A stretch of 60,287 nt of DNA from positions 1 through 60,287 of IMG/VR virus record IMGVR_UViG_3300025132_000036; one strand, 5' to 3'. Below, piece after piece: positions 38,531-60,287 of the stretch; within the stretch, counting starts at the first letter, position 1; each line of letters starts with the position of its first letter. This DNA comes from a virus. The notes beneath the pieces were generated by a model. It saw only the letters and a list, made by a program, of their open reading frames with translations, made no database searches and was not told where the DNA came from. The position numbers and the translations under genes are program-made.

Positions 38531-38553
38531 TGATTCTGTGGCGTACACGCCAC

Positions 38554-46105: not shown

Positions 46106-46368
46106 TCCCCCGTCTTGCGGTAGCCGTTGACCTCGAGCCACATCATGCCCTCGACCTTGTTCATGGCGTACATGAACTTGTCCTCCTCGCACATGTCCTC
46201 GGGTGCATCAAGCAGATGCACGATGAAGCGGTTGTTCCAGAAGCCGTTCAGTTCATCGGCCCACTCGGCCACGGCGGCACACCGCGACTTCAGCGGAATG
46301 TGCATTGCCCGCCAAGGGGGCAGGGCGTCCCATGCGTCTTGCGTCGTTTCGTATCGTGGTGTGTTCAT
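46096..46368 (-). CDS. Unknown 90-aa protein
   Basis: A 90-residue helical protein rich in Trp and Met (WRAMHIPLKSRCAAVAEWADELNGFW). GGAGGAACAAGA before the ATG is a strong ribosome site. The transcript should start about 16 nt upstream from a GGGTTTATAT promoter inside the end of the preceding gene, so this gene begins a sub-operon. No family recognised. Confidence 0.65.
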   Translation of the reverse strand: MNTPRYETTQDAWDALPPWRAMHIPLKSRCAAVAEWADELNGFWNNRFIVHLLDAPEDMCEEDKFMYAMNKVEGMMWLEVNGYRKTGECR

Positions 46369-46913
46369 TCTTGTTCCTCCGTCACATTGTTGCTATCGGT
46401 TGGGGTCATATAAACCCTTGCCCATTCGGGAATGTCCAGCGGGTTGTTCCACACCACGCGCTCCTTGCTCATGTAGTACCGGCGGTATGACTCGACCACA
46501 TCGTCGCCCTTGAACTCGTCAGGCATGGCGAGCGGGTGGCGGGTCAGCGGGCCATCGGGAATCAGGGTCGCCAGTTTGGACGTGTAGTACGCGGGGTCGC
46601 TGCACGCATGGTGCTTGCCTCGACGCGCATAGAACTCCACCTGCAAGCCGACGGCGTGGTCCCAGAGCCACCACCAGTTCGAGCGGGTGTTGCCCGCCCA
46701 AATCGTACACGGGTGGTGCTGATGGGTGCTACGCCAAGCGTTGCCTGCCTGTGTCGTCACGCCTGCGTTCAGGAGCATTGTCTCGTTCGCACCGTGGCGG
46801 TACAGGGCGGTGGTGAGCATCTGCGTTGACTCAATCAGCATCTTGCCGAGGCGCAGGTCGTCGTGCATCCACGCCGCAATCTGCGGGTCCTTGTCCAGTA
46901 CGAAGATGTTCAT
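46365..46913 (-). CDS. Conserved tailed-virus protein, MNIFVLD family
   Basis: A 182-residue protein. The start MNIFVLDKDPQIAAWMHDD, LGKMLIESTQMLTTAL, the HPCTIWAG segment with WWLWDH, a GKHH motif and MPDEFK...YRRYYMSKE form a pattern I recognise from a conserved protein of marine and other tailed phages, usually of unknown function. The many invariant His, Trp and Tyr suggest an enzyme or nucleic-acid binding. The exact activity is not known to me. Confidence 0.7.
   Translation of the reverse strand: MNIFVLDKDPQIAAWMHDDLRLGKMLIESTQMLTTALYRHGANETMLLNAGVTTQAGNAWRSTHQHHPCTIWAGNTRSNWWWLWDHAVGLQVEFYARRGKHHACSDPAYYTSKLATLIPDGPLTRHPLAMPDEFKGDDVVESYRRYYMSKERVVWNNPLDIPEWARVYMTPTDSNNVTEEQE
46407..46414 (-). 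promoter_or_regulatory. TATA promoter GGGTTTATAT
   Basis: The minus-strand CAAGGGTTTATATGACC is near-identical to the promoter before the gene at 49732. The predicted start is at about 46384, leaving a 16-nt leader with GGAGGAAC. Confidence 0.7.
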
Positions 46914-47080
46914 TGGACCACCTCCATGCCCCTGAAGTCACAGGACGGGCAGTACGCAGGCTCGTCGGGGTCCACGTAGCAAATGAACGTGTGTACCCCA
47001 CATCCCCTCGTGTCGCAATAAAACACACAGTCGTCCTCCAGTATGCGGGCAACCGTGCTGCGTCGAATCTTGGCGTTCAT
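46910..47080 (-). CDS. Zinc-ribbon microprotein, 56 aa
   Basis: A 56-residue protein with paired cysteines (DCVFYC...GCG...CYV...CPSC). The start follows a perfect GGAGGTGA four bases upstream, in the junction sequence GGAGGTGAGCGCATGA that is repeated at the next gene up. It overlaps both neighbours. Part of a run of three adjacent zinc proteins. Confidence 0.65.
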   Translation of the reverse strand: MNAKIRRSTVARILEDDCVFYCDTRGCGVHTFICYVDPDEPAYCPSCDFRGMEVVQ

Positions 47081-47283
47081 GCGCTCACCTCCACATACCA
47101 GTTCGCGGTGACGTGGAACTCGCCCGTGTAGTTCGTGCAGAACCAACGGTGGTTCTTCGCAGCCTCGCGCACTTGGCGCATGTTGTGGAAGTCGCCGTCA
47201 GCAACGGGGCGCAGCACTTGGCCGTTCACGTCAATGGGGAGGTTGCAGCCGCAGCAGCGGGCGCGGTGAATCTTGTCGCTCAT
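47077..47283 (-). CDS. Zinc-binding microprotein, 68 aa
   Basis: A 68-residue protein with CCGC at 9-12 and another Cys near 50 (WFCTNYTGEF), plus several histidines. It starts after GAGGAGGTGA with the same GCGC spacer and ATGA overlap as the neighbouring gene. Function unknown. Confidence 0.65.
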   Translation of the reverse strand: MSDKIHRARCCGCNLPIDVNGQVLRPVADGDFHNMRQVREAAKNHRWFCTNYTGEFHVTANWYVEVSA

Positions 47284-47444
47284 GCGCTCACCTCCTCGTA
47301 CATCTTGTCCATCACGGAATTGAAGCACACGCTGCACAGGGGCTTGCCCGACATGCGAGCAGCCACAGGGTGCGACTCCGTACACACGAAGCACATGACC
47401 TTCACGGGCTTGCCCCTGTTCCATCCACCGTTGTCCTCGCTCAA
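47280..47444 (-). CDS. Zinc-ribbon microprotein, 54 aa
   Basis: A 54-residue protein with two CxxC pairs, CFVC at 18-21 and CSVC at 37-40, a clear zinc ribbon. The TTG start overlaps the upstream stop as TTGA; GAGGTGAC lies upstream. Its last codons form the ribosome site of the next zinc protein. Confidence 0.65.
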   Translation of the reverse strand: MSEDNGGWNRGKPVKVMCFVCTESHPVAARMSGKPLCSVCFNSVMDKMYEEVSA

Positions 47445-47671
47445 GAGAAGTCACCTCGGCACTCCGCGTCGTAGTGAATCTTGGCCGTCTGCACGAGGCC
47501 CTCGAAGTCCTCGCAGAACTCGTCGTCCTCGTGGAACGCTTGCTCGACCAAGTGCATGAGGTTAGCGAGCATGTCCACAATGCGGTTCGCCAGTACGGGC
47601 GCTCCCCAAGTGTCCTTCGGGTCCAAGGCGTCCAAGGCTTTCGCGGCTCGGTCGCGGTTGCTCGGAATCAC
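47441..47671 (-). CDS. Unknown acidic 76-aa protein
   Basis: A 76-residue acidic helical protein (RIVDMLANLMHLVEQAFHEDDEFCEDFEGLVQTAKIHY). GTG start, overlapping the stop upstream as GTGA, with GGGGTGG before it. An acidic protein directly after a very basic one may indicate a complex. No family recognised. Confidence 0.6.
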   Translation of the reverse strand: MIPSNRDRAAKALDALDPKDTWGAPVLANRIVDMLANLMHLVEQAFHEDDEFCEDFEGLVQTAKIHYDAECRGDFS

Positions 47672-47817
47672 GACGACCACCCCTTGGGCTTGGTCAGCAG
47701 GCCATCGGCCTCGCTCACCTGCTTGCGCGGAGCGGGCTTCTTGGCCTGAGCCTTGGTCGCCACCTCGCGGTACGTTCGGTTCGTTTTGTTTGTTCGGTTT
47801 CGTCGCTTGTTCGACAT
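47668..47817 (-). CDS. Basic 49-aa protein
   Basis: A 49-residue protein rich in Lys, Arg, Asn and Thr (SNKRRNRTNKTNRTYRE), with no hydrophobic core, so probably disordered and nucleic-acid binding. The ATG is set by GGAGG and by a TTGATATA box predicting transcription start right at that GGAGG. It begins the sub-operon of small zinc proteins. Confidence 0.6.
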   Translation of the reverse strand: MSNKRRNRTNKTNRTYREVATKAQAKKPAPRKQVSEADGLLTKPKGWSS

Positions 47818-47852
47818 GATTCGTGCCTCCAGTATTACGTAGGGGCCGAGAG

Positions 47853-47860
47853 TATATCAA
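47853..47860 (-). promoter_or_regulatory. TATA-type promoter TTGATATA
   Basis: The minus-strand GTTGATATACTC lies just downstream of the stop at 47880. Transcription should start near 47830 with a 13-nt leader beginning GGAGG. Confidence 0.65.
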
Positions 47861-47879
47861 CCCTCTGGCCCCTTTGGGT

Positions 47880-48578
47880 TCAGGCCATCCACCCCTTCAG
47901 CCGGAGCATGGCGTCAGCCTCGGTCCGCTCCTGTTGAGGCTCGCCAATCAGGTCGAGCAGACCCCCATCCGTGTGCCCACAAGCCCTGCAATAGAGCATA
48001 TGGTACACGAAGTTCCGACCGAAGCGGTGTACCTCGTCGGTTTCGCCCGACCATTCAGGCTCCATCGTGTGCGTATCAACGCCGAGAATGTTCGACTCCA
48101 CGAACTGCACGCCGCGCAGCATCACGTTGTGTTGGTCGCCACATTCGGGGCAGGCCACCGGCTGAGAGCGAGTATGCACGGGCACGTTGTGCTTGTGCGC
48201 CTGCTCCACGGCGTCGTTGATGAGGCTACGGATAACGACCTTCTGCCCGGAGTTCCACCTCATGGTGCCGCGCTCACGGTAGTGGTACGTATCATGCACA
48301 CCCATGCGCCAAGCGTACAGGTATTCGCAGGCATCCCCCAACGTGTGGAAACGCTTGGAGGCGACCATGACCGATGCCGAGGGCGGCACGGGCGCACCCT
48401 TGGCGCGAGGCGGTGACTGGTCCTCCCACACGAGCACCTCGTAGTGACCCCCCGCATCAGCGGCGTTGGGCTCCGCGAGGTCGCCGGGGTTGGTGTCGTA
48501 CCTCAGCCATTGCCTGTACCGTCCACCGTCCGTCACCTGCCGCAAGAGCGTGTAGTCCGTGTAGTTCGCGCCGCTCAA
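47880..48578 (-). CDS. Unknown 232-aa protein with zinc ribbon
   Basis: A 232-residue protein. A C-terminal ribbon has CPEC near residue 160 and CRAC near 207 (CPECGDQHNVML...LYCRACGHTDGG). The N-terminal half is mixed (YTDYTLLRQV...RQWLRYDTNPGD). The TTG start overlaps the upstream stop (TTGA), with GGGGGTGG before it. It is the last gene before a new promoter. Function unknown. Confidence 0.65.
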   Translation of the reverse strand: MSGANYTDYTLLRQVTDGGRYRQWLRYDTNPGDLAEPNAADAGGHYEVLVWEDQSPPRAKGAPVPPSASVMVASKRFHTLGDACEYLYAWRMGVHDTYHYRERGTMRWNSGQKVVIRSLINDAVEQAHKHNVPVHTRSQPVACPECGDQHNVMLRGVQFVESNILGVDTHTMEPEWSGETDEVHRFGRNFVYHMLYCRACGHTDGGLLDLIGEPQQERTEADAMLRLKGWMA

Positions 48579-49732
48579 GCGTCCACCCCCAAGCAGGAAG
48601 CGGCCTGCACCGCCTCGAAGTCGCACATCGCCTCGGCCTCCTTGATGGCCTCAGCCAACCGTTGCCGCGTCAGCGTCATGACGTTGTGTGCCTCGCCCAT
48701 CCGTAGGTCGGCTTGGTGCTGCTGCTTGCGGAACCAGTCCTCCGTCAGCCGCTCACGAGCACCCTTGTATTGGGTGTACGAGCGCTCCTCAATCCGGGCT
48801 TGCCGTGCGAGGTGGCGCACTTGCCGGAGGGCGTGCTCCCGCTTGCCGTTTGCTTCAAGGCCACCGTCACCCTCCAAGAGCCATTCGCACCAGTCAATCC
48901 GGTCCAACCATTGCTGAAGCGTCTTGACGCAATCACGGTGCTGCACCTGCTGACCGTACGACCCGCTCTGCGGGTTGCCGCTCGGGCTGAACGCGACCAC
49001 ACGTGCTCCGGCACGGTACAGGGCGTCGTCCTCAAGCGACAGGTTCCACGGCGCAACACAAACCGGTGTCTCGTCCATGCCTCCGTCTGCATTCGCCTGT
49101 AGGCAGATGGCCTGCATGTGGGAATGGGGGTGGTCCCACTCCGGGTTGACTAACCGCAAATGCTGCTTGCGCTGCACTCCCTTCGAGTCCACGAACCGCA
49201 CGTATTGGCGACCGAGGCGACCGGAATTCCCTTGGCTTGGGCCGGTGTGGGCGATGAAGTGCTCCAGTTCCTCGCCTGCGAGGGGCCACCGATAGGTCAT
49301 CTTGACCACATCGGAGCGTTGTGAATGTCCGAACACGAGGGGCAGGTGCTCCGGCGCAATGTGTGACTTCGCAGCACGGCGCTTGAGTTCCTCGGCCTCG
49401 GCTCGTGCAATGGCGATGGTCTGCTTCATGGAAGCGTACATGGTCGGTGCATGGGCGAGGTGGGCGGTGAGGTCCCGGCGCGAGGCTTGCTCGAAGGCAA
49501 CCTGTGCCTCCTCGTCGCTCACCTTCACGGGTCGGTTCTGACCGGGGTACGTAGGGTTGGGGTGAGGGTCGTAGCGCCACTTGTGAAAGTTCGCGCCGTA
49601 TCGGCGTGAGAACGAGAGCAGCCCTTGCAGCAGGCGGTTCGCCGTGGTGTCCTGCGTAAAGAGCAGCACCTGCGGTCGCCGCAAGGCGGGGCGGGTCTTC
49701 GGTGTGTGTATCTTGTTTGGTTGGTTTTGCAT
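48575..49732 (-). CDS. Unknown 385-aa protein
   Basis: A 385-residue protein. The N-terminal part is basic (PKTRPALRRPQVLLFTQDTTANRLLQGL). The centre has a His-rich strand region (EWDHPHSHMQAICLQANADGG). The C-terminal third is a long charged helix rich in Arg, Gln and Ala. The start has GGAGGAACCCGAAC directly upstream and an 18-nt leader from a GGGTTTATAT promoter. No family recognised. Confidence 0.65.
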   Translation of the reverse strand: MQNQPNKIHTPKTRPALRRPQVLLFTQDTTANRLLQGLLSFSRRYGANFHKWRYDPHPNPTYPGQNRPVKVSDEEAQVAFEQASRRDLTAHLAHAPTMYASMKQTIAIARAEAEELKRRAAKSHIAPEHLPLVFGHSQRSDVVKMTYRWPLAGEELEHFIAHTGPSQGNSGRLGRQYVRFVDSKGVQRKQHLRLVNPEWDHPHSHMQAICLQANADGGMDETPVCVAPWNLSLEDDALYRAGARVVAFSPSGNPQSGSYGQQVQHRDCVKTLQQWLDRIDWCEWLLEGDGGLEANGKREHALRQVRHLARQARIEERSYTQYKGARERLTEDWFRKQQHQADLRMGEAHNVMTLTRQRLAEAIKEAEAMCDFEAVQAASCLGVDA

Positions 49733-49772
49733 GTTCGGGTTCCTCCGTTGTGATTGTCCGTATCGGTGGGGT

Positions 49773-49780
49773 GATATAAA
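49773..49780 (-). promoter_or_regulatory. TATA promoter GGGTTTATAT
   Basis: The minus-strand CAAGGGTTTATATCACC matches the promoter at 46407 almost base for base, including the downstream CCGAT and GGAGGAAC. The predicted start is near 49750. Confidence 0.7.
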
Positions 49781-49789
49781 CCCTTGGGC

Positions 49790-50104
49790 TCAATCGTCGC
49801 CTCCACGGGGGTTGACCTTCAGGATGAGGCGGTCCACGCGCAGACGCTCGGCGCTCACAATCTGATGGTCGGCACGCAGCATCACGGTCGTGACGCGGCC
49901 ATGCCGGATGATGACCACGACGTTGCGGCCATTCGAGCCACACGCAGCGGTGCGGTACACGGGCAAGCGCATGGCGTACAGGGCGACGCTCTCACGTCCC
50001 CCGATATCGGGCCGCTCGGCCTTCACGATATCCCACAAGCGCTCGCGCTCGGCGTCCGTGAGCCTGTCCACCACGCGCTCACGATAGTGCTGTGTCCGCC
50101 TCAT
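49790..50104 (-). CDS. Unknown 104-aa basic protein
   Basis: A 104-residue protein, helical then beta (LTDAERERLWDIVKAERPDIGG, NVVVIIRHGRVTTVMLRAD), with a basic end. The strand pattern around VVVIIRHGRVTTVML may be a small toxin-like or RNA-binding fold, but this is weak. ATGA overlap with the gene upstream. Confidence 0.6.
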   Translation of the reverse strand: MRRTQHYRERVVDRLTDAERERLWDIVKAERPDIGGRESVALYAMRLPVYRTAACGSNGRNVVVIIRHGRVTTVMLRADHQIVSAERLRVDRLILKVNPRGGDD

Positions 50105-50406
50105 TGGCGAATCACCACCGTCGTCCACCCTCGCTGTACGTCGCTCGACGGCACGCCGGGGTTCCTGATGGCCCCGCAGAGGCATTGGCTCGGGTTGCAC
50201 TTGGGCAAGCCGATGCACCCTTGCTTCAGGGCCATGGCGCACCGGATGGCGTGGTCCCCATCGGTATAGGACACGTCGGGGCAATCGCTTGACCGGTGGT
50301 ACACCCAAAGGGCCGTATCGGCCTGTTCGGCGGTCATGTGGGCAGGGTCGCTCGGCCAGTCGGCGTACCGGTCGGTCTGGATGCGTCGTAGGTAATACCA
50401 GTTCAA
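50101..50406 (-). CDS. Cys-rich protein, 101 aa, TTG start
   Basis: A 101-residue protein with six cysteines, five of them in the last half (AIRCAMALKQGCIGLPKCNPSQCLCG), likely binding zinc or an iron-sulphur cluster. The TTG overlaps the upstream stop (TTGA) after a strong GGAGGTG. Function unknown. Confidence 0.6.
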   Translation of the reverse strand: MNWYYLRRIQTDRYADWPSDPAHMTAEQADTALWVYHRSSDCPDVSYTDGDHAIRCAMALKQGCIGLPKCNPSQCLCGAIRNPGVPSSDVQRGWTTVVIRQ

Positions 50407-51833
50407 GCCACCACCTCCGCACGGACACGACCACCAAGGGTGGTCTGCTTGTTGCCCCTGAACTCGCCGTGACGCTTGACCTTGCCCGTCACCTTGTGTG
50501 CGCCCAAGCCGGGCGGTGCGGTGGTGAACCACGACACATGGTTGCCCTCCGTGGTCACGAAGGACACGGCGTTGGAGCGTCCGTATGAGCCGTCGAAGGG
50601 GCGCACGGCGGTGACCTCACCGGTCAGCGTCACCTTGTCCCCCACAGAGCCGATGTGCTCGGAGGCCACCCCGTCCACCGCAGGCAGGCGCTCAGCGAGT
50701 GCCTCACGGGCCTCGCGCTTGAGGTTGCGGCGATAGCCGGAGATGGCTCCCATGAACAGGTTGCACGTCTTGAGGGTCACGACACCGGCTTGGAGCACCG
50801 CACGCAGGGAGGCTCCGAAGGAGCCGGTGGCGGCTCGCATGGAGTCGAGCAGCCCCTCGGGTGTGCCGAACCACGCAGGCTCGTCCCCACGGTCAGGCAG
50901 GTCGTACGCCGCCAAGGGCCACACCTCGATGTGCTCCTCAGCGATGGTCGGAATCATGTGGGGTCGCTCGTCAGGGTCACGAACGGCGTACCGAAGGCTT
51001 GTCTGGTTGGCCTTCAGCGTGTTGTTCCAGTACCGGGTCGTCGCTCGGGGGTTCGGGGGTGTCCACACACCACCGTGCTCGTCCACGAACATGCGCTCGT
51101 GGTCGAACAGGAGGCGACCACGGCCACGGGCATATGACTCGCCTTGCAGGAGCATGGTGAGGCGCACGGCCTCCGTGACCTCAGCGACCTTGCGTTGGCG
51201 TCGTCCGCCGTAAGAGAAGCCGTCCCACATGAGGGTCCGCACGTTCACCATGTTCATGGCCATGTCGCCGGTCACGCCCATGTAGTCGAACAGGCACGAG
51301 GTGCCGATGTTGCGTACCTCGCCTGTGTCCTTGTGGCGCAGCAGCACGGTCTTGAGCCGACCACGGGCACCGGAGGTGCAATGGTCACACCGGTCGTGGA
51401 ACACGACGGCAGGTCCCTCACGGGTACGCACGGTCGGCACGTACGAGGGCATGTCCTCGTGTCCCTGCTCGTCCGGGGCGGCACGCCACACACCGGGGCG
51501 TGACCCCGATTCGTTGGGGTTGGCGGGCTCGACGGTGCCGAGGATGGTCCACGGGGTGTCTGCACCGGGCCAATGGGCCACGGTCACGTCCCTGACCATG
51601 CGGCCGTACGTGTCCTCGCTGATGGGCAGGTATGAGCGGCGACGACGCCACCCGGAAATGCGGGTCTTCAGCACCTTGGCGGTGATGGTCTCAAGGTACG
51701 GGTCACCGACCTCGTACGTGAGCGGGGTCGCACCACGGCGCTCGGACATGCCCACGAGGCGCTTCAGGAGCGACTCCACGTGGTCCCACACGGCCATGGG
51801 CACGGTGTACGTCACGGGTCCGTCCTCAGTCAT
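50403..51833 (-). CDS. Conserved phage-type zinc/OB-fold protein, 476 aa
   Basis: A 476-residue protein. A treble-clef-like zinc motif at about 150-185 (CDHC...RHKDTGEVRNIGTSCLFDYMG) and a C-terminal OB-like domain (VTLTGEVTAVRPF...VTGKVKRHGEFRGNKQTTLGGRV) form a pairing I recognise from a conserved family in phages and plasmids. The family's function is not established; nucleic-acid binding is likely from the OB fold. The gene lies in an operon of small zinc proteins. Confidence 0.7.
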   Translation of the reverse strand: MTEDGPVTYTVPMAVWDHVESLLKRLVGMSERRGATPLTYEVGDPYLETITAKVLKTRISGWRRRRSYLPISEDTYGRMVRDVTVAHWPGADTPWTILGTVEPANPNESGSRPGVWRAAPDEQGHEDMPSYVPTVRTREGPAVVFHDRCDHCTSGARGRLKTVLLRHKDTGEVRNIGTSCLFDYMGVTGDMAMNMVNVRTLMWDGFSYGGRRQRKVAEVTEAVRLTMLLQGESYARGRGRLLFDHERMFVDEHGGVWTPPNPRATTRYWNNTLKANQTSLRYAVRDPDERPHMIPTIAEEHIEVWPLAAYDLPDRGDEPAWFGTPEGLLDSMRAATGSFGASLRAVLQAGVVTLKTCNLFMGAISGYRRNLKREAREALAERLPAVDGVASEHIGSVGDKVTLTGEVTAVRPFDGSYGRSNAVSFVTTEGNHVSWFTTAPPGLGAHKVTGKVKRHGEFRGNKQTTLGGRVRAEVVA

Positions 51834-51958
51834 GCGTCCACCTCATCAGCACAGTCCTCGCACAGAGAGCGCGACCATCCGTCTGCTCCCTTGACCATGA
51901 TGTGAAGGTCTTCGTGGACCTGTTGGTTGCATCCGACGCAAAGGTAGTCTCGGCTCAT
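51830..51958 (-). CDS. Zinc-ribbon microprotein, 42 aa
   Basis: A 42-residue protein made almost only of a zinc ribbon: CVGC at 7-10 and CEDC at 33-36. GGAGGTGGACGC precedes the ATG, and it overlaps both neighbours by four bases. Its sister upstream has a similar size and layout, suggesting duplication. Confidence 0.65.
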   Translation of the reverse strand: MSRDYLCVGCNQQVHEDLHIMVKGADGWSRSLCEDCADEVDA

Positions 51959-52089
51959 GCGTCCACCTCCTCGCAAGCGGGGCAGAAGCCGCCACCGTAC
52001 GTGATATCCCTTCGGCAACCGTCACACACGAGAACGCTGATGGCGTCCACACCGTCGGGGGTCATGCCGACCGTCATCCACGTGCTCAT
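51955..52089 (-). CDS. Zinc-ribbon microprotein, 44 aa
   Basis: A 44-residue protein with CDGC at 22-25 and CPAC at 36-39, ending EEVDA, close to the DEVDA end of its downstream neighbour. GGAGGTGCTCGG precedes the ATG. Likely a diverged copy of the neighbour. Confidence 0.65.
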   Translation of the reverse strand: MSTWMTVGMTPDGVDAISVLVCDGCRRDITYGGGFCPACEEVDA

Positions 52090-52394
52090 CCGAGCACCTC
52101 CGCATGGAAGTCCGGGGTACGGACATGGAGGGAACGGAGGCCGGGGGCACCGTTGACGACCCAATCGCCGTCGTAGCGCGGGTCTGTGGGGTCATGCAGG
52201 CTCACATGGGCAACGAAGCCGATTTCGGTACGGTGTTGGGCCAAGTGAATGCTCGTCCACCTCTGCTCGATGGCTTCGCCATCCTTGACCACGTACCCTG
52301 CATCCACGAGGGCGGCGCACCATCCGGGCAAGTCATCGGCCGAGAAGTTCAGTTCGTCCGTGAAGGAGCGGGGTCGCATGGGTCCCTTGCTCAC
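52086..52394 (-). CDS. Unknown 102-aa protein, GTG start
   Basis: A 102-residue protein (LNFSADDLPGWCAALVDAGYVVKDGEAIEQRW...HLAQHRTEIGFVAHVSLHD) with helix-then-strand order. The GTG overlaps the upstream stop as GTGA. The same frame is open further upstream, but that part overlaps the promoter-proximal gene and is unlikely to be translated. Function unknown. Confidence 0.6.
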   Translation of the reverse strand: MSKGPMRPRSFTDELNFSADDLPGWCAALVDAGYVVKDGEAIEQRWTSIHLAQHRTEIGFVAHVSLHDPTDPRYDGDWVVNGAPGLRSLHVRTPDFHAEVLG

Positions 52395-52648
52395 TTGCGC
52401 ACCCCCACGAGGGTGAACGAGCCGCTCGCCATTGAGGGTGCGGTCCATCGGAGCACGGTGAACTTTGGGTCGGCTGAACTCACGAAGGAAGCCACGGAGT
52501 GGCGGCGCAAGTTCGTGACCACGGTCTTGTGGTTCCGGTGATGCGGATTCGGAGAATCCGAAATCCACGTCACGACTCGGGATGGAGTCTCGACAACGTG
52601 GAGGGCGGTCGGTGGGTTGGGGCGTGTTGGTTCTGCGGTTCGTCGCAT
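52391..52648 (-). CDS. Unknown 85-aa protein, leaderless start
   Basis: An 85-residue protein. The N-terminal half is Pro/Arg-rich, and the second half has strands (HSVASFVSSADPKFTVLRW). The ATG is chosen because the TTTATATC box is centred 26.5 bp upstream, predicting a leaderless mRNA; the neighbouring frame's ATG seven bases upstream would precede the transcription start. It is the first gene of the leftward accessory operon. Confidence 0.6.
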   Translation of the reverse strand: MRRTAEPTRPNPPTALHVVETPSRVVTWISDSPNPHHRNHKTVVTNLRRHSVASFVSSADPKFTVLRWTAPSMASGSFTLVGVRK

Positions 52649-52670
52649 GGTTCATCGGAGCAGCGGGAGG

Positions 52671-52678
52671 GATATAAA
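52671..52678 (-). promoter_or_regulatory. TATA promoter TTTATATC
   Basis: The minus-strand CAGGTTTATATCCC is centred 26.5 bp before the ATG at 52648. It would drive the leftward accessory operon. Confidence 0.7.
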
Positions 52679-53018
52679 CCTGTGGCCGTTGGGTCGGTTA
52701 TAAGGGGCAGGGTGGTGAACCGATAGGTTGCGCCGATGGAGAGGGCTATGTTGAGGTCGTCTATGGGCCGGTCGGTGCCGGGATGGCCGACGGGGCGGAG
52801 AAACGAGCCTCTCGCTATAAGCACGTACTCGCGTACGCGATTAGGGTAGTCCCCCGCACGAGCGTATGCCCTACCCATCCACAGGCAACGGCGACGATTT
52901 TCAGGCCGGGGTCTTTCCCTGAATTTGGGGCGAAATTCGGTTTGATACCCGTACGTGGTGGTGGAATGGCCCTCAGCCATTCCCGTACATGCGGCGCACA
53001 GGCGCGTACCCGCCTACA

Positions 53019-53042
53019 GGAATTGGTGGTCACACCAATTCC
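53019..53042. repeat. Perfect 10-bp inverted repeat
   Basis: Arms GGAATTGGTG and CACCAATTCC flank a 4-base loop. It is the strongest hairpin of the cluster in this non-coding region and has no T-run, so an operator, origin element or RNA structure is more likely than a terminator. Confidence 0.7.
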
Positions 53043-53133
53043 CCACTTTTCGGAAAACCGACCTCTCCTCAGATGGCCCCCGCGCAAAGTCTTCCTTAAG
53101 ACTGGCCGCAGAAAAAAAAGCGATACCCTCCAC

Positions 53134-53141
53134 TTGATATT
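53134..53141 (+). promoter_or_regulatory. Orphan plus-strand box TTGATATT
   Basis: One base different from the early-gene TTGATATA box, and placed after a diverged copy of the early control module. Transcription would start near 53164. No normal gene follows; only a 24-codon frame lacking a standard start lies at that point. A non-coding or decayed early transcript is possible. Confidence 0.4.
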
Positions 53142-53276
53142 TCGGAGTTGGGTGTGCTGTTTCATAAACTACGTGAAAAGCGGACAATCAGCGTCAATCT
53201 GCACAAATCCCCTGTATGGTCGCGCCAAGCGGCGTTAGGGTGCGTGATGCACCGGGAGCGCAGGGGGATTCACACC

Positions 53277-53315
53277 CTATCTGCACTTAGCGCAACGGCA
53301 GTTCTGCGGGCACAT
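53277..53315 (-). CDS. Possible 12-aa Cys-rich peptide
   Basis: A complete tiny frame, MCPQNCRCAKCR, with four cysteines at 2, 6, 8 and 11. Its ATG follows a perfect GGAGGTGA with a 4-base spacer. The preceding 20 or so bases are an exact repeat of the leader before the ribbon-helix-helix gene. Cysteine spacing would allow binding of one metal ion. The site could also be a leader peptide controlling expression. Strong ribosome site, but too short to prove. Confidence 0.45.
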   Translation of the reverse strand: MCPQNCRCAKCR

Positions 53316-53320
53316 CTTAT

Positions 53321-53400
53321 CACCTCCTGTGTGCTTGTGAATGCGGGGGACCCCCCGATGCCGCAGCACCGAGGGGTCCGGTCTCACCTGTCGTAATGCA
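53321..53400 (-). promoter_or_regulatory. Duplicated leader, copy 1, with hairpin
   Basis: From the upstream side it reads GGTGAGACC, a GC-rich hairpin (GGACCCC with GGGGGTCC), then a 21-base block ending in GGAGGTGA. The same order occurs before the next gene upstream (53642-53711). It looks like a reusable 5' leader or an intergenic processing unit. Confidence 0.5.
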
Positions 53401-53430
53401 GGCGTGTTGTGTTGGGGACGGACGGGTGGT

Positions 53431-53637
53431 TCACCACCGGGGCCACATCTCGTTGGCGCTCTTGAGCCAAAGGTGCGGTCCCTCTTGTCCGTCTGTGCCG
53501 ACGCCCATGAAGGCTTCAACGGCTGCGGTGACGATTTGACTTCGCTCAAAGCCATGCTTCGAGCAATAGTCGTCAATCATCATTCGCACCCAGTCGGGTA
53601 CTTCAATGGACACCGGGTCGGTTTCGTTGTTCGTTAT
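53431..53637 (-). CDS. Ribbon-helix-helix-like protein, possible ATA start
   Basis: A small DNA-binding protein. The pattern SIEVPDWVRMMIDDYCSKHGFERSQIVTAAVEAFMG is that of a ribbon-helix-helix repressor. A perfect GGAGGTGA lies upstream with a 4-base spacer and then ATA, in the same register where the duplicated leader downstream has ATG. This implies an ATA start and 68 residues. The first standard start, GTG at 53613, would give 60 residues but has no ribosome site. It may regulate this operon or the hairpin region downstream. Confidence 0.6.
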   Translation of the reverse strand: MTNNETDPVSIEVPDWVRMMIDDYCSKHGFERSQIVTAAVEAFMGVGTDGQEGPHLWLKSANEMWPRW

Positions 53638-53641
53638 GTTT

Positions 53642-53711
53642 TCACCTCCTGTGTGCTTGTGAGTAGGGGGCTGTTGTTGTCCCGGTCAGCCTCCGGGCGG
53701 TGGGTCTCACC
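53642..53711 (-). promoter_or_regulatory. Duplicated leader, copy 2
   Basis: The same GGTGAGACC start and 21-base end with GGAGGTGA as copy 1. The middle differs but again contains GC-rich pairing (CCGGAGGCTGACCGG). Two copies before consecutive genes point to segmental duplication of the leader. Confidence 0.5.
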
Positions 53712-53732
53712 GATTGGGCGCGGCGTGATGCC

Positions 53733-53759
53733 GCCTGTACCCTTGTTGGGGTACCTTGT
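53733..53759 (-). terminator. Hairpins after the 211-aa gene
   Basis: Perfect arms GTACCC/GGGTAC around CAACAA, next to a second hairpin GGCG/CGCC. They lie just downstream of the 211-residue gene stop. No T-run follows, so they may act in RNA processing or stability rather than termination. Confidence 0.4.
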
Positions 53760-53786
53760 TAGTACACGTCAGGGCGAATGCCTACC

Positions 53787-54422
53787 TCAGTAGGACACGG
53801 GCGCTTCAGGCCAGAAGTCCGTCAGGTCGAGCGAGTCCACCCGAAGATGGTACTGGTTCTCGGTCATCAGGGAATGGATGCCGCCAACCTGCTTCCAGTC
53901 GAACATCGGCTCGGGGATGCAGGCGTAGGCTTCGGCCATGATTTCCACGGTCCCGTCGGGCAGGGGCATGGGGTCATAGTGGGGGGAAGCCCACTCATCC
54001 ACACCGAACCAAACGGTTCCGGGTTGCACACGCACCGGGAGCCAGAGGCGACCGAAGTCCGCCATCTGTTCGGCTTTGAGCCGCGCGGCCTCCGTCAGGG
54101 CGTTGACGATGGGCTTTGGAAGCCACACCATTTCGGCGGTGTTGACGCCGAACGTCTTGCCTTCGGGATGGTTTGGCCGGTAGCGGTTGGGGTTCGCCGA
54201 GTCAAAGAGCCCAAAGGACTCGTTGCGGACGAACGCGAGCAACCGCTGGGTGCTCCACCATTCTTGGTGCGTCGTGGTCATGTCCGGCGCAAAATGGCCG
54301 GAACCGGTTGGTGGCGTCAGGAAGGACACCAACCACATGACGTGCAAGCGCACGTTTTCAATCAGTCCCACGCTTGCTGCGTGGGAAGCATTCACCTCGT
54401 TCTGTACAGTCTTCTCAGACAT
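53787..54422 (-). CDS. Unknown 211-aa protein
   Basis: A 211-residue protein. A helical N-terminus (SVGLIENVRLHVMWLVSFL) could be a membrane-associated helix. The rest is mixed, with WLPKPIVNALTEAARLKAEQMADFGRLWLPVRV and a Trp/Asp-rich end. It lies downstream of the amidoligase/amidotransferase gene in the same direction, separated by a strong hairpin. A shared pathway is possible but nothing in the sequence identifies an activity. Confidence 0.6.
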   Translation of the reverse strand: MSEKTVQNEVNASHAASVGLIENVRLHVMWLVSFLTPPTGSGHFAPDMTTTHQEWWSTQRLLAFVRNESFGLFDSANPNRYRPNHPEGKTFGVNTAEMVWLPKPIVNALTEAARLKAEQMADFGRLWLPVRVQPGTVWFGVDEWASPHYDPMPLPDGTVEIMAEAYACIPEPMFDWKQVGGIHSLMTENQYHLRVDSLDLTDFWPEAPVSY

Positions 54423-54555
54423 GTGGTGCTGCCTGCCCCCTGAAGGGCAGAACAGTCACCTGTTGAGAAGGGGTGGCCACAGGGATGGCCGATGCTCACC
54501 CTGAATCTGCCCTTGCGGGCTTACTCGGCTTCGTTGAGAGGCCGGAGACTTGGGG

Positions 54556-54592
54556 GGGCTACCCACCCCGGCATTCCGGGCGAGGGTGGGTA
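54556..54592 (-). terminator. Strong hairpin between two genes
   Basis: Perfect 10-bp arms GCTACCCACC and GGTGGGTAGC with a GC-rich inner stem, followed on the minus strand by a run of seven C. It lies between the 942-residue gene and the 211-residue gene and could attenuate transcription or protect mRNA ends. Confidence 0.55.
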
Positions 54593-54645
54593 GCGGTCTC
54601 GTCAGTCACAATGCTGACGTGTGTGCGTGTTGACGCTTACTCTGC

Positions 54646-57474
54646 TCAGCGGAGCCAACGCATGTCGCGGTAGTCGTCCGTCGCCCAGTTCCACTTCTCG
54701 GAGAAGAAGTCCTCGTCCAGAGACTGGTCGAGGTGGTCACGGGCGTGGCCGGCCGCAAGGTCTGCGTCTGCATCACGGTAGTCGCCCTTGGCGACCCACG
54801 ACCAATCAAGGTCTTGTTGGGACCAGATATCCACGTACAGGGAGCGGGGCAGTTCGTATTCCACAATGTGGTCCTCGTCCACCGCCGTTTGTCCCCGGTG
54901 CGTGTTTGCGTCGTAGCCGTCGTACCACTCGCCTTCATGGATGAAGGGAGGCCATCCGACGTAACCGAAGTCAGCCACACCTGCCTCGATGGCCGCGTCC
55001 TGCGCGGCAACTTGAAGCGCGTTGCGGTCAGCAACGGACACCTTGGGCGTCAGGTCAAGCGCACAGTTGTCCGCATTGCCGGAGGCTTTGCGGGGCTTGC
55101 TCCACGACCAACGGGTGTTTTGCCCGTAGGTGGTGGCGTAGGTGCGCCAGTCGTACGACGTGGCTGCGGTCTGGGCCGAGCCGGCAATGTCGCGGGAGGT
55201 AATCGCACCCGAAGGCGTGATTGTGTAGTGGCGACCAATGACGCATTCGTACACGGAAGCCAGTTCCTTGCCGAAGGCGTCTTCGAGGTGCGCGGTAGTG
55301 CTGCCGACCACAACAGGACCGGTGGTCTTGTCGCGGAGCCGACCGAACGAGAGTGGGTTGCCCCCGTTCGTCCAGAAGTGCAGGTGGTCAGGTTGGTCGC
55401 GGTCTGCCCAGATGAGGGACATGCTGCCCTTTGCGTACTTGACTACGGTTTCAATGCCGCCCACCTCGAGGGCTGCGGCCACCGCTTGAGAGTCAACATC
55501 GCCAGTTGGCTCGACCTTGATTCCTGCCCACACGTCTTCGTAGTTGTGAACGACGCCGTTGTGGACCAACACCACGCGCTCGTTGTGAGAGGCGTGGGGG
55601 TGCGCGTTTTCGGGCGTGTTTGCACCGTGCGTTGCGTACCGCGTGTGGACCATGGACCAGTTGATGTTCGTCTGCCCGAGTTGCTTGACCGTCTTGGCGG
55701 TGTACTTCTCGAGCGACTCGGCATGTGCAGCGACGCGCCATGTACGCAGGCCGTCCTTGCTGCGGATAGCCCACCCGGCTGCTTGTCCACCCCGCGAGGC
55801 GAGGAGGGTGTGCAACTTGGCGAGCCACTTGCCCTTGACGAACTTGCGGTTGTTTGCACGGTGGATGGCTCCAATGCCGCAGCCCACAATCAGGGCAGCG
55901 GCGGCAACCCATGAGCCGAAGCCCATGAGAAGGGACAAGAGTCCGAGCGCCGTGGCGTCCAACGAAAACTGGGACCACGAGAGGTGGTCGTCTGGGTCTT
56001 GGCCTGCGGCCTCCGCACAGCGCGTACAACCGCCTCGGAAGTACACAACGCTGAGTTCCGTATCTTGAGGGGTGAGTTCAAGGGTACAACCGAACTGCTC
56101 GTGCATGTATTCCTGAACACCCAAGGTGGCCAGTTCAGACCCGCAATCGTCGCATTGGATGTAGGGGTGCGCTTCGTACAGGGCATTGCGTCGTTCCACC
56201 GACAGTTGGTCGAGGTAGTACATGCGGCCGGGCACCCACAGGGAGTCCCCACCGCTCATCAGGCCCTGCAACGTCGCCGTGTTTGCGGTAGCGAGGGTTG
56301 GGTCTGTGTCCATCCATGGCCACTCGGGCTCAGGACCCTCATTCGCAAGGTGACGTGCGCGTGCTTCCCAGAACTGCATCTCCGGGTCATCCTCGGACAG
56401 ACCGAGGTAGTCCCGAATAGCAGCGATGCTGCTGAAGTAGGAGTCGCGTGTCTGAACGCTGCGGCGTTTCTTGGTCACATGACCGGCCGCCCAGTCCCAC
56501 CACGCATCTTCATCCATGGAACGCTGCACCATCAGGTAGCACAGTCGAATCCATGCGTACATCTTGTTCGAGTTCACGGTGCCTTGGTGGAGTCGGAACT
56601 CCACGGTGCCGTAACTTTCGAGGCAGGTCAGACGGACAGGCAGGTACCGGTCAGTACCGATGACCCGCCAAATGTCGCTGTACACGGCGCTCTTGACGTT
56701 GGGGTTCATCTCTGAGAGCGGCTTGTCCTTGGACCATCCGAACAGAGACTTCATGCCCCGTGGGTTGCTGTTGTCGAGCGCCTTTGCGACCTTCACCGTC
56801 TTGCTCGTCGGGCTGTAGTGGGTGTCGGGTCCTGCGGCACTCTTGATATCCCGTAGGTTCCGAGCGCCGGAGTAACTGTTGATGCCCGTCTTGGTGCGAC
56901 GGCTTGGGCTGACGATTGACTCGAAAGCACCAAACAAAATGTAGTACGCAATCGCAGTACGCATTCCCACACCCTTTGCCTGCTCGAAGGACACGGGGCC
57001 GTTGTTGTTGTTGTCGAAAGACCCGTTGTGGTCACGCAGCCCGATGTGGACGTGCATGCCGCACGAGGTATCAACCCCGAGCACTCCTGAAGCAGAGCGA
57101 CCAATGGCCCGCACGTAGTTTCGGATTCGTCCCCAACCGTGAAGCGGGGGAGACACGATTTCCGCGCTGCCGTACGACCCGCCGTTGAGCGAGGAGTCGG
57201 TGACGATTTTGGTATTCGTCATGGTACGATGTGAGTACCCCTCGTCTTGTGCGTGGACGTAGCCGTCGCTCGTCATGCGCAGGTACTGCGCAAGGGTGAC
57301 GTTGTTGAACTCAGCGGCCCGCTTGCGGACCTCCAGTTCCAACCCCGCTCGAGCGACCATTCGGTCGTGGTGCTTGGTTCCAATCCAAGCGACGCCAACT
57401 GCTGCCGTGAGCACAAAGGCCCAGAGCATGGGAAGCAGAGTAAGCGCCATGTTAATGTCTGTGGTTGCAGACAT
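54646..57474 (-). CDS. Membrane amidoligase / class II glutamine amidotransferase fusion
   Basis: A 942-residue protein. After a membrane helix (about 12-32) comes an amidoligase_2-type COOH-NH2 ligase: GLELEVR (44-50), AEIVSPPL (104-111), SCGMHVHIG (137-145) and VEFRLHQGT (291-299). A possible zinc site follows (CDDC 441-444, CTRC 483-486), then a second membrane helix (about 508-530). The rest is an Ntn-type glutaminase: CGIGA with Cys532 as predicted nucleophile, RGGQAAG (561-567), HTRYATHG (610-617), ENAHPH (622-627), VHNGVVHNY (637-645). The glutaminase would release ammonia from glutamine for amide formation on an unknown carboxylate. The nucleophile of this class must be N-terminal, so cleavage before Cys532 is implied. 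GGAGGG precedes the ATG. Confidence 0.85.
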   Translation of the reverse strand: MSATTDINMALTLLPMLWAFVLTAAVGVAWIGTKHHDRMVARAGLELEVRKRAAEFNNVTLAQYLRMTSDGYVHAQDEGYSHRTMTNTKIVTDSSLNGGSYGSAEIVSPPLHGWGRIRNYVRAIGRSASGVLGVDTSCGMHVHIGLRDHNGSFDNNNNGPVSFEQAKGVGMRTAIAYYILFGAFESIVSPSRRTKTGINSYSGARNLRDIKSAAGPDTHYSPTSKTVKVAKALDNSNPRGMKSLFGWSKDKPLSEMNPNVKSAVYSDIWRVIGTDRYLPVRLTCLESYGTVEFRLHQGTVNSNKMYAWIRLCYLMVQRSMDEDAWWDWAAGHVTKKRRSVQTRDSYFSSIAAIRDYLGLSEDDPEMQFWEARARHLANEGPEPEWPWMDTDPTLATANTATLQGLMSGGDSLWVPGRMYYLDQLSVERRNALYEAHPYIQCDDCGSELATLGVQEYMHEQFGCTLELTPQDTELSVVYFRGGCTRCAEAAGQDPDDHLSWSQFSLDATALGLLSLLMGFGSWVAAAALIVGCGIGAIHRANNRKFVKGKWLAKLHTLLASRGGQAAGWAIRSKDGLRTWRVAAHAESLEKYTAKTVKQLGQTNINWSMVHTRYATHGANTPENAHPHASHNERVVLVHNGVVHNYEDVWAGIKVEPTGDVDSQAVAAALEVGGIETVVKYAKGSMSLIWADRDQPDHLHFWTNGGNPLSFGRLRDKTTGPVVVGSTTAHLEDAFGKELASVYECVIGRHYTITPSGAITSRDIAGSAQTAATSYDWRTYATTYGQNTRWSWSKPRKASGNADNCALDLTPKVSVADRNALQVAAQDAAIEAGVADFGYVGWPPFIHEGEWYDGYDANTHRGQTAVDEDHIVEYELPRSLYVDIWSQQDLDWSWVAKGDYRDADADLAAGHARDHLDQSLDEDFFSEKWNWATDDYRDMRWLR

Positions 57475-57754
57475 GTAGCATCCCTCCTTGGGAACCCGAG
57501 ATGGGCCGTAGCCGTTGGGTCGCGTTGCGTTATCTCGGATGGTCGCGCAACGAAGGACGTATGGTAGGTATCTGTATTACTGCCTGACGACGTGCGTACG
57601 TGCCTTAGTACGCCATGGACCGTATCTGTATCAACGGTCACTCTGTCGGGGCCGAAGCCGGGACAGTCGGGGGAGAGGTCTGACGGGCAGTTCTGGCTGC
57701 ACGTCCTCCCGAGCGAGTCTGCTTACATGTCTTCGCTTGCGCGGTGCCTCCGGT

Positions 57755-57884
57755 GTTTGTTTGGACCAATGCCGTAAATCTGTGGAGGCTGATTCTGTGC
57801 CGAGGACCTTATCCCTCGTTTGTCTGACTCGCTCTCTTGTCGTCAGGCGTCATGTACCCACTTGAGTGCGGTTTGTTTGGACCA
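57755..57884. repeat. Direct 14-bp repeat pair, 116 bp apart
   Basis: GTTTGTTTGGACCA occurs at 57755-57768 and 57871-57884, each followed within about 30 bases by one or two TCTGT motifs. A weaker relative (TCTGTTGGGACC) lies at 57976. They look like iterons or protein-binding sites. Confidence 0.55.
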
Positions 57885-58171
57885 TCTGTTTGCCGTAGCA
57901 TCCAGTACGTCTGTGAGTAGGTGGGCTCCGGTATCTGTTGAAACCATCATCGCCCGTACAGGGGGGTGCCGCCGGTCTGTTGGGACCGGCGAACATGACG
58001 CTGATTTTCTGAGGTGGGAGTCTTCATTGCTCGATGCTCTTACGTCATCTTTTACGCTCTGTTTGCACAGTTCGCGTACCTCCATGCTCCCGTCGGTCCT
58101 GCTTGCACCGCAGCCTGCTCGTTCACACAGGGGTATCTGGCTCGGACTCTTGTCCACCTCAGTTTAGCCAC

Positions 58172-58179
58172 TATATCAT
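58172..58179 (-). promoter_or_regulatory. Orphan TATA-like box, minus strand
   Basis: The minus-strand GATGATATAGTGG resembles the TTGATATA promoters. Transcription would start near 58149 and run through the TCTGT-rich desert toward the 942-residue gene. It could provide a long leader or a non-coding RNA. Confidence 0.4.
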
Positions 58180-58405
58180 CCGGCACCCTTGGGTCCTGCT
58201 GCGTCCGTGCAAGTGGACCACAACACCACAAGGGTGCGTGTTTGCCTCAGAAGGGTGCCGTCAAAGCGGCTTGTTAGGATGCGATGGGGACCAGTCCGAA
58301 GGACCAACCCCCACCCCGTCGCCGGGTCGTGTAACCGTCCACACAACCACGCCGCCGGTGAGGGGTCGTCGCTGCTCGGGTATGATAGGCCATCCGAGGG
58401 GTCCC

Positions 58406-58412
58406 ATATAAA
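58406..58412 (-). promoter_or_regulatory. Orphan GGGTTTATAT box, minus strand
   Basis: The same GGGTTTATAT core as the promoters at 46407 and 49773, but no gene with a ribosome site follows. It may drive a non-coding RNA or be a remnant. Confidence 0.4.
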
Positions 58413-58689
58413 CCCATGCAATTGGGAAAACGTGGTACTGCGAGCAAGATCTCCCAAAAACGGCCGTTTCGGAGGGGCCGCCGGTCGGGGCCGGAGAGGG
58501 GCCGCCGGGAGGGTCGTCAACGGTGGGTTCAAGAGGGGGGCCGTGGTGGGGTGACCATGGGCCGACGGCACCCGTTCGGAGCGACGGAGGGAGGGCATGA
58601 GTTCCCCTCCTGAGAGGCCCTCTCTCCTCTCCTCAGATGGTGGGTCGTCGTGTTTCCCTAAGACTAATATAACCTCTCTCCCACGGAAT

Positions 58690-58706
58690 AATCTCTCTCC
58701 CATATG
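58690..58706. repeat. 17-bp pyrimidine-rich repeat, copy 1
   Basis: The 17-mer AATCTCTCTCCCATATG is identical to one at 59383-59399. Each copy lies 80-100 bp before a TTGATATA early promoter, as part of the repeated control module. Confidence 0.75.
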
Positions 58707-58788
58707 TACACACCACACAGACCACACCACACGGGGCGCAGGGTACCACAGGAGGGCCACAGGAGGGCCGAAACGACCGAAGCGCGGG

Positions 58789-58796
58789 TTGATATA
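58789..58796 (+). promoter_or_regulatory. Early promoter TTGATATA
   Basis: In the context GGGTTGATATAG, centred 26 bp before the ATG at 58818. Transcription and translation starts therefore coincide, although GGGAGGGG lies between box and ATG. Confidence 0.75.
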
Positions 58797-58817
58797 GCCC
58801 AACGTGGTGGGAGGGGC

Positions 58818-59291
58818 ATGAGCCGACCAAAGCCCACCGCCAAGCCCACCCGATTCAAGCACCGCTTCGGCTTCCGCCATGGGTGGGCCGTAGTGGCCCA
58901 CTACACCCCGAAGCAATCGAAGACCGTCATCCACGGCCACCGCAAAGACGGCCACTTCAAGAACTTCAGCAACGTCACCGGCAGCGGTTCCGTCCTCACC
59001 CTCAGCCTCCGCCGTGGAGGCCAGAAGCGCGGCACCACGAAGGTCATCGGGGCCAACGCCGACAACCTCGCAGCCCACCTCAACGCTTACCGGTCCAACG
59101 CCGTCCCACACGCCGCCCTGTGGCCCGTCATCGGTCGCCGCTCCGGTGCCTACGGTCGCCGGTCGTGGGGCACCGACACCTCGCACCCAACGAAGCACAT
59201 GGAGAACCACGACGACACCCGAACCACCCCGTACCGGTTCAAGGACTGGATGGGTGCGGTGTGGCTGACCCCGGAGGTCGCCGAGGAGTGA
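58818..59291 (+). CDS. Early basic protein, paralog 1, 157 aa
   Basis: A 157-residue very basic protein. The central part (HFKNFSNVTGSGSVLTLSLRRG...RGTTKVIG) and the end (GAVWLTPEV) match the next gene's product in order (PKNYHTRTGSGSNLRVTIGKMQRGRWTTI; SAMWNTPHV), so the two are diverged paralogs. Codons end almost always in C. The repeated promoter and high basicity suggest an abundant early nucleic-acid- or chromatin-binding protein acting on the host; this is inference. No known family recognised. Confidence 0.75.
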   Translation: MSRPKPTAKPTRFKHRFGFRHGWAVVAHYTPKQSKTVIHGHRKDGHFKNFSNVTGSGSVLTLSLRRGGQKRGTTKVIGANADNLAAHLNAYRSNAVPHAALWPVIGRRSGAYGRRSWGTDTSHPTKHMENHDDTRTTPYRFKDWMGAVWLTPEVAEE

Positions 59292-59350
59292 GGGGCACCG
59301 CCCGGAGGGAATCCCCTCCTCTCTCCTTTCGGTACCTCTCCCGAGGTGCC
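59292..59350 (+). terminator. Hairpins after paralog 1
   Basis: GGAGGG/CCCTCC hairpin near 59304-59319 followed by a TCTCTCC pyrimidine tract, then a second hairpin GGTACCTC/GAGGTGCC. Similar hairpins follow the other early genes. They probably end or process each transcript before the next control module. Confidence 0.5.
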
Positions 59351-59357
59351 GTTAGGA

Positions 59358-59379
59358 AGACTGTTCCTTACTTAACGTA
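59358..59379. repeat. 22-bp control-module repeat, copy B
   Basis: Identical to the element at 14-35 and at the same relative position, before CTCTCT repeats and a TTGATATA promoter. Confidence 0.75.
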
Positions 59380-59382
59380 TGA

Positions 59383-59399
59383 AATCTCTCTCCCATATG
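59383..59399. repeat. 17-bp pyrimidine-rich repeat, copy 2
   Basis: Identical to the 17-mer at 58690-58706, between the 22-bp repeat and the promoter of paralog 2. Confidence 0.75.
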
Positions 59400-59480
59400 G
59401 GGGCGCACACCTACCCCTCCCCGCCGAGCCGAGGGGTAGCCGAGCACCCCATAGAAGGGGAGCATCAGCCCGGCCGTGGG

Positions 59481-59488
59481 TTGATATA
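59481..59488 (+). promoter_or_regulatory. Early promoter TTGATATA
   Basis: In the context GGGTTGATATAG, centred 25.5 bp before the ATG at 59510, with CGGAGGAGC immediately before ATG. A leaderless start is predicted. Confidence 0.75.
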
Positions 59489-59509
59489 GGACCACACCGT
59501 CGGAGGAGC

Positions 59510-60109
59510 ATGAGCCGCCGCCGCGACCCCAACAAGCCCCTGCCTATGACCAAGACCACCATCACGCCCGAAACCAACGACAAGGGCAAGCCCATGCGGA
59601 AGAAGGGCGAACTGACCTTCAGCACCAAGAAGGCCCGCTTCGTCGTCAAGTTCGACTATCAGCCCACCTTCAGCACCACCGTCGAACGCCGCCACCACAA
59701 GCACGGCGCACCGAAGAACTATCACACCCGCACCGGGTCCGGGTCCAACCTCCGGGTGACCATCGGCAAGATGCAGCGCGGACGGTGGACGACCATCCGA
59801 AGCCGTGAGTTCACCGGCACCCTTGCAGACGGTTGGTTCGCCGACCTGTGGGACGCTTCGATGCCGGGTCGGGATGTGTGGGCCTTCTGGTCCCTGTTCA
59901 AGCCCAAGGGCCGCATGTGGACCACCGAGCGAACCGGCGAGGACACCACCCACGAGTACCGCGTGACCGAGAACGACGACCCAACCCGCCGCGTCCCCTT
60001 CAGCGAGAAGTCCACCTTCCAAGACGGCCAGAAGTCGGCGATGTGGAACACCCCCCACGTTGACGACAAGTCCCCCAAGGCCGAGGCATGGAGGCGTGGC
60101 GAGATGTGA
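59510..60109 (+). CDS. Early basic protein, paralog 2, 199 aa
   Basis: A 199-residue basic protein related to the gene before it through TGSGSNLRVTIGK, the following RGRWTTI and a C-terminal SAMWNTPHV. It has a longer Lys/Thr-rich N-terminus (RKKGELTFSTKKARFVVKFDY) and an acidic, Asp/Glu-containing end. Strong C-ending codon bias suggests high expression. Duplicated gene and promoter together indicate tandem duplication followed by divergence. No known family recognised. Confidence 0.75.
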   Translation: MSRRRDPNKPLPMTKTTITPETNDKGKPMRKKGELTFSTKKARFVVKFDYQPTFSTTVERRHHKHGAPKNYHTRTGSGSNLRVTIGKMQRGRWTTIRSREFTGTLADGWFADLWDASMPGRDVWAFWSLFKPKGRMWTTERTGEDTTHEYRVTENDDPTRRVPFSEKSTFQDGQKSAMWNTPHVDDKSPKAEAWRRGEM

Positions 60110-60133
60110 GGGGGACACCTCCCGCCGCCGCCG

Positions 60134-60180
60134 CCGGGGGGCCTGCCGCAGCAGGTCCCCCATTTCTTCTTCAGATGCTC
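60134..60180 (+). terminator. GC-rich hairpin with T-rich tail
   Basis: GGGGGCCTGC, loop CGCA, GCAGGTCCCCC forms a strong stem with one bulge, followed by ATTTCTTCTT. This probably terminates the transcript of paralog 2 just before the map junction. Confidence 0.6.
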
Positions 60181-60188
60181 TCTCCAAA

Positions 60189-60287
60189 GACGCCGTAGGA
60201 AAGACTGTTCCTTACTTAACGTAATATCTCTCTCTCCTATCTCTCTCACACAGGTCGCGCGTACGCACCCAGTATGCACATAGGGGA
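60189..60287. repeat. Terminal direct repeat, right copy
   Basis: Exact repeat of bases 1-99. The control module of the 60-residue early gene therefore runs continuously through the junction, which supports a circular or circularly permuted map. Confidence 0.95.

Follow-up and report, generated by a model that had tools for sequence, protein, structure and literature searches.

Class II glutamine amidotransferases normally carry their nucleophilic cysteine at the N-terminus, where it is exposed by loss of the initiator methionine or of a short propeptide, and the free amine of this cysteine is thought to be the general base of the reaction. How could such an enzyme become active if its cysteine lies behind several hundred residues, a second enzyme and a hydrophobic segment of the same polypeptide? 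This question is raised by a gene of the virus IMGVR_UViG_3300025132_000036, of which the stretch from position 1 to 60,287 (60,287 nucleotides, the window) was analysed, and it makes the gene a testable case of both the release of an Ntn nucleophile and its coupling to a membrane. The open reading frame at 54646-57474 on the minus strand begins with ATG and encodes 942 amino acids in one chain.

From the N-terminus, and all on the minus strand, this chain consists of a membrane segment (TM1, residues 7-33, 57376-57456), an Amidoligase_2 domain (residues ~41-330, 56485-57354) recognised by its Pfam match, its invariant residues and a domain model, a cysteine-rich linker (residues 331-506, 55957-56484), a second hydrophobic segment (segment 2, residues 507-531, 55882-55956), a class II (Ntn) glutamine amidotransferase domain (residues 532-770, 55165-55881) recognised by Pfam, alignment and model, and an acidic C-terminal tail (residues 771-942, 54649-55164). 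The linker varies among relatives and contains the zinc-ribbon-like CxxC pairs C441/C444 and C483/C486 (residues 441-486, 56017-56154), for which a zinc ribbon is possible; these pairs are usually, not always, present in the relatives, most of which have an extra upstream cysteine cluster that is absent from the window chain. In the tail, a conserved GYD...H.G...Y.LP motif (residues ~852-876, ~54847-54921) stands in an otherwise variable sequence.

Both enzyme identities that had been proposed from the sequence, with complete motifs, were borne out. In Pfam, Amidoligase_2 (PF12224) scores 51.4 bits (cut-off 22; E-value 1.8e-13) and GATase_6 scores 51.9 bits (cut-off 27; E-value 1e-13); PHROGs agree with Pfam. 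Within the amidoligase half, the window chain has every residue that does not vary among 72 diverse amidoligases (G44, E46, E48, D93, E105, H141, H143, R192, E292, R294 and W308). The model of this domain has a mean pLDDT of 79.5 and a pTM of 0.81, and the 50 matches listed against the PDB are throughout members of the glutamine synthetase / gamma-glutamylcysteine ligase superfamily or its kin; these matches are weak (best E-value 1.8e-3, TM about 0.3), and a PDB sequence search with the amidoligase alignment found nothing.

The modelled glutaminase domain matches the glutaminase of GlmS (1xff), the best structural match of the isolated domain, with a target TM of 0.74 and a probability of 1.00, and its fold resembles both GlmS and PurF; in the full-length model the region has a pLDDT mostly between 75 and 93. 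The placement of Cys532 (55879-55881) at the Ntn active site, as originally predicted, is supported by the alignment of Cys532 to the cysteine after Met1 of stand-alone phage glutaminases and by the TIGR01135 (GlmS) model, of which positions 1-130 align to residues 531-666. The domain shows sequence and fold features of a class II (Ntn, MEROPS C44) enzyme, with a cysteine at the start of the fold, the HTRxxTHG, HNG and VDS/D motifs and the Ntn fold itself. Of the 12 glutaminase positions that were checked, among them Cys532, HTRxxTHG, HNG and VDS, none differs in any of the 19 members of the family. It is no complete GlmS: the full-length equivalog score is not reached (65 bits vs 418) and the isomerase domain is absent by Pfam. 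GlmS and PurF share the Ntn glutaminase fold and the catalytic residues with the window chain, but their glutaminase is N-terminal, not membrane-bound and preceded by short propeptides, whereas the window glutaminase is C-terminal and its chain has neither the sugar isomerase domain of GlmS nor the phosphoribosyltransferase domain of PurF.

A chain of this kind could in principle result from the erroneous joining of two neighbouring genes during sequencing or assembly, all the more as such two-gene neighbours are common among other phages. A single-sequence search of viral contigs gave no match. An alignment-based search with the glutaminase domain retrieved 15 more viral contigs at 40-50% identity and a second search added 2. 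All 17 have the same single chain with TM1, amidoligase, linker and segment 2, followed by CGIG[AL]xH, and the relatives with long enough contigs are syntenic viruses of ~60 kb. As 17 independently assembled contigs share the junction, while the 15 relatives aligned at full length have an overall identity of no more than 32-38% to the window chain, an artefact is barely conceivable; the recurrence of the architecture in these contigs rules out chance, misassembly and a lost stop codon. Ratios of dN/dS of 0.10-0.25 in the first half and 0.06-0.17 in the glutaminase (pairs with estimable dS) indicate that both catalytic halves are under purifying selection. Judged by these sequence comparisons, the fusion is genuine and conserved: it is a form of a known viral cassette in which a single membrane chain carries both enzymes and a predicted internal Ntn nucleophile. 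No earlier description of it was found in the literature searched, outside which lies the work of Iyer et al. 2009 on these amidoligases.

Neither relatives nor a host emerged when bacterial and archaeal genomes were scanned with the glutaminase family and the virus terminase as queries, matches in a plasmid search were mostly of the GlmS type, and PADLOC profiles of known anti-phage defence systems gave no match. The longer phage amidoligases L072, L111 and L168 were inspected as well, and none of them is independently fused to a glutaminase. Separately from this, the L168 amidoligase (L168:3864-5912, another viral contig) is fused behind pentapeptide repeats.

The original prediction of one chain with a membrane helix ending right before CGIGA agrees with segment 2, which ends in ALIVG directly before Cys532 and whose position and ending are conserved in all relatives. 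Among the 18 chains of the family (window and 17 relatives), the residue before the cysteine is Gly in 17 and Asn in one, and the one before that is Val in 18 of 18. By contrast, among the stand-alone phage glutaminases from outside the family in the collected viral loci, all those with a readable start begin with Met-Cys (68 scored by pattern and 4 by eye); the few remaining rows have a start that the pattern did not reach.

One further relative, L016, is kept separate from these 18 chains, as its chain is split into two overlapping genes (L016:5899-7047 and L016:7044-8069). Its amidoligase gene retains the N-terminal segment, and its glutaminase does not begin with Met-Cys: it starts with M(LM)LLSLLLPLAILVN followed directly by CGIGAYHH, a shortened hydrophobic leader of 14-16 residues that ends in LVN before CGIG. 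The fact that the split glutaminase still has this leader suggests that the hydrophobic stretch belongs to the glutaminase half. The glutaminase tree unites the split L016 and the fused members in a single, fully supported clade, in which the fused L106 is the sister of L016 (100% SH-aLRT); in the amidoligase tree the same clade is supported with 99% and the L016-L106 pair with 98%. The simplest history to be read from the two trees would be a single fusion followed by a single split. Since the short stretch in which its genes overlap may contain a sequencing error, L016 is supporting rather than decisive evidence.

The original prediction had left two ways of exposing Cys532, a cut in front of it or translation from an internal start, and the two have fared differently. 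An internal start at a Met-Cys is excluded because the codon before the cysteine always encodes Gly or Asn: it is GGC (Gly) in the window and GGN or AAC in 18 of 18 chains, and in none of them a start codon. That the glutaminase half is translated separately from a start further upstream could be proposed from the ATG at residue 517 of the window chain and from L016, where a glutaminase that has a hydrophobic leader is encoded by a gene of its own. Any upstream start position is common to at most 5 of the 18 chains, though, and the product would still require cleavage, so that separate translation is very improbable. Cleavage before Cys532 is the part of the prediction that stands as the best inference, given the 18 like junctions and the leader of L016.

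The next question is which enzyme would cut. Class II amidotransferases with a few residues before the N-terminal cysteine remove them autocatalytically (PMC9140057), which makes self-cleavage by the Ntn domain the most likely route. Cleavage by a membrane protease of the host, be it a signal peptidase II-like enzyme acting at a lipobox, a signal peptidase or an intramembrane protease, is an alternative with several points in its favour: in most relatives, positions -3 to -1 (I-V-G in the window) fit the lipobox [LVI][ASTVI][GAS], segment 2 is hydrophobic and in most cases interrupted midway by a helix-breaking Pro or Gly, and in L016 the segment lies at the extreme N-terminus in the manner of a signal peptide. 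Against it, the lipobox is broken by Thr at -3 in L104 and L107 and by Asn at -1 in L106 and L016, 350-500 residues of another domain precede segment 2, and positive residues follow the segment in all chains, whereas in the window none flank it on the N-terminal side. Lipoprotein processing, moreover, lipidates the thiol of the cysteine, which would kill the nucleophile. A bacterial-type lipoprotein was accordingly rejected as a description of the family, as [LVI][ASTVI][GAS]C is not found in all members. As the lipobox fails in four members and its processing would block the thiol, self-cleavage is favoured over lipobox processing, and a host protease of whichever kind is unlikely to make the cut.

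It might also be argued that no cleavage takes place and that Cys532 is held in the chain of a non-catalytic or altered glutaminase; the free amine as general base is, after all, assumed from the class and only predicted for the fused family. Such a reading must be set against catalytic residues that are fully invariant over 19 sequences and against the purifying selection on the glutaminase domain (dN/dS 0.06-0.17), and is quite improbable. Self-cleavage, on the other hand, has its own difficulty. The known propeptides of class II amidotransferases are short, whereas the putative propeptide of the family would have 377-541 residues and would hold another enzyme.

The location of both enzyme halves follows from the charges around the hydrophobic segments. 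Around TM1 of the window chain there are no Lys or Arg residues before the segment and 6 in the next 20 residues, so that an N-out, C-in orientation is expected; the family has 0 before and 3-7 after in 18 of 18 chains. Around segment 2 the counts are 0 before and 6 after in the window, and 0-3 before and 5-9 after in the 18 chains. The original prediction had asked whether both domains face the same side, and this positive-inside pattern over 18 chains suggests that they do: both enzyme domains are expected in the cytosol, where ATP and glutamine are. A single pass of segment 2 would place the glutaminase outside, against this pattern, and segment 2 is therefore more likely to be re-entrant or interfacial, or odd in some other way, than to be single-pass. 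Its middle usually contains a Pro (GFGS in the window, Pro then Lys once, in L190). The full-length model has a pTM of 0.40 and a pLDDT of ~36-43 in segment 2, values too low to judge the arrangement of the domains or an ammonia tunnel.

The reading that accounts best for these observations, and which we consider on balance probable, is that the gene encodes a single precursor of a membrane-anchored amidoligase that depends on glutamine. The bond between Gly531 and Cys532 would be cut, with the Ntn domain itself as the most likely agent, and the amine of Cys532 would thereby be freed; the glutaminase could probably act only once this had happened. The two products would remain together as a two-subunit enzyme. 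Ammonia derived from glutamine could then pass to the amidoligase, which would use ATP to amidate a carboxylate presented at the cytosolic face of the membrane, with the uronic acid of a lipid-linked glycan, a lipid head group or a membrane protein as candidate substrates. That both halves are tethered does not follow under this mechanism: the glutaminase half would have no hydrophobic segment of its own after cleavage and would therefore be held only by contact with the first half.

A gamma-glutamylcyclotransferase-like gene elsewhere in the genome had been pointed out as well, and it was found at 39224-39607 on the minus strand (GGACT, AIG2-like; PF06094, E-value 8e-25), ~15 kb from the fusion gene. 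It is present in 6 of 6 relatives whose contig includes the clamp-loader region, and its product may edit gamma-glutamyl products. With it, all the enzyme types of the phage cassette (amidoligase, GATase and GGCT) are found in the window genome. Adjacent genes for amidoligase and glutaminase are found in Arthrobacter phages and many other viruses; such two-gene cassettes occur in the Arthrobacter phages Salgado, Laroye, Wheelbite and Ottawa, in OM43 phages and in phiEco32-like and LUZ24-like podoviruses, and GGCT and ATP-grasp genes often accompany them. The window resembles these tailed-phage cassettes in the linkage of both enzyme families and in the GGCT gene of the genome, with ~28-30% identity per domain. 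The cassettes of tailed phages encode separate soluble proteins with a Met-Cys glutaminase and, where they have GGCT, carry it inside, while in the window both enzymes share a chain that has two hydrophobic segments and an internal cysteine, and its GGCT gene lies apart. Two-gene cassettes have been predicted to modify the host surface or envelope against superinfection (PMC5498523, PMC10580990), a putative role like the one that the original prediction had suggested for the fused chain.

The host of the virus bears on the substrate. The Family B DNA polymerase (31425-33689, minus strand) and the RFC-type clamp loader (37628-38548, minus strand) are closest to those of the haloviruses HCTV-5/HVTV-1, and together with an ERCC4/HhH nuclease they suggest an archaeal host, which is plausible from the gene content. 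The nuclease, at 27942-28673 on the minus strand, is an XPF-like ERCC4 protein with a helix-hairpin-helix, a repair nuclease of the archaeal/eukaryotic type in a tailed virus, and the polymerase and clamp loader are conserved at 64-71% in the ~60 kb relatives. The haloarchaeal tailed virus PhiCh1 likewise has a class II glutaminase-like gene, ORF40, whose product of 191 amino acids differs in its Met-Cys start and in being unfused. PhiCh1 was considered as an archaeal two-gene counterpart and set aside, as an amidoligase adjoining its glutaminase was not recognised.

The phage amidoligase cassette is widely annotated and so far without a substrate. That a version of it is fixed at the membrane, in a virus whose host is probably archaeal, speaks against peptidoglycan being the sole target and focuses the search on membrane-linked carboxylates. 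If the host is archaeal, peptidoglycan is an unlikely target, and the uronic acids of lipid-linked glycans are one candidate. Substrates of this type exist, since archaeal N-glycans carry an amino acid on a uronic acid, namely threonine on mannuronic acid, for which the attaching enzyme had not been identified in the review consulted (PMC2952790). To activate an enzyme by a cut at the end of a membrane segment would be unusual, and the enzyme in question may remodel the host envelope. A bolder and rather doubtful extension is that the Val-Gly/Cys junction and the hydrophobic segment act as a membrane-coupled switch, by which maturation would take place only beside the membrane substrate and ammonia would be made only beside the anchored ligase, with amidation of an archaeal envelope component such as a lipid-linked uronic acid. 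This would, if true, be a new mode of Ntn-enzyme activation.

Further observations concern the right part of the window. Near its right end, two adjacent small basic proteins, possibly paralogous, are encoded on the plus strand (58704-59291 and 58883-60109), the first of which has no family match. The whole arm from 44600 to 60287 is variable, and the fusion gene and very few other open reading frames in it have recognisable counterparts in the relatives.
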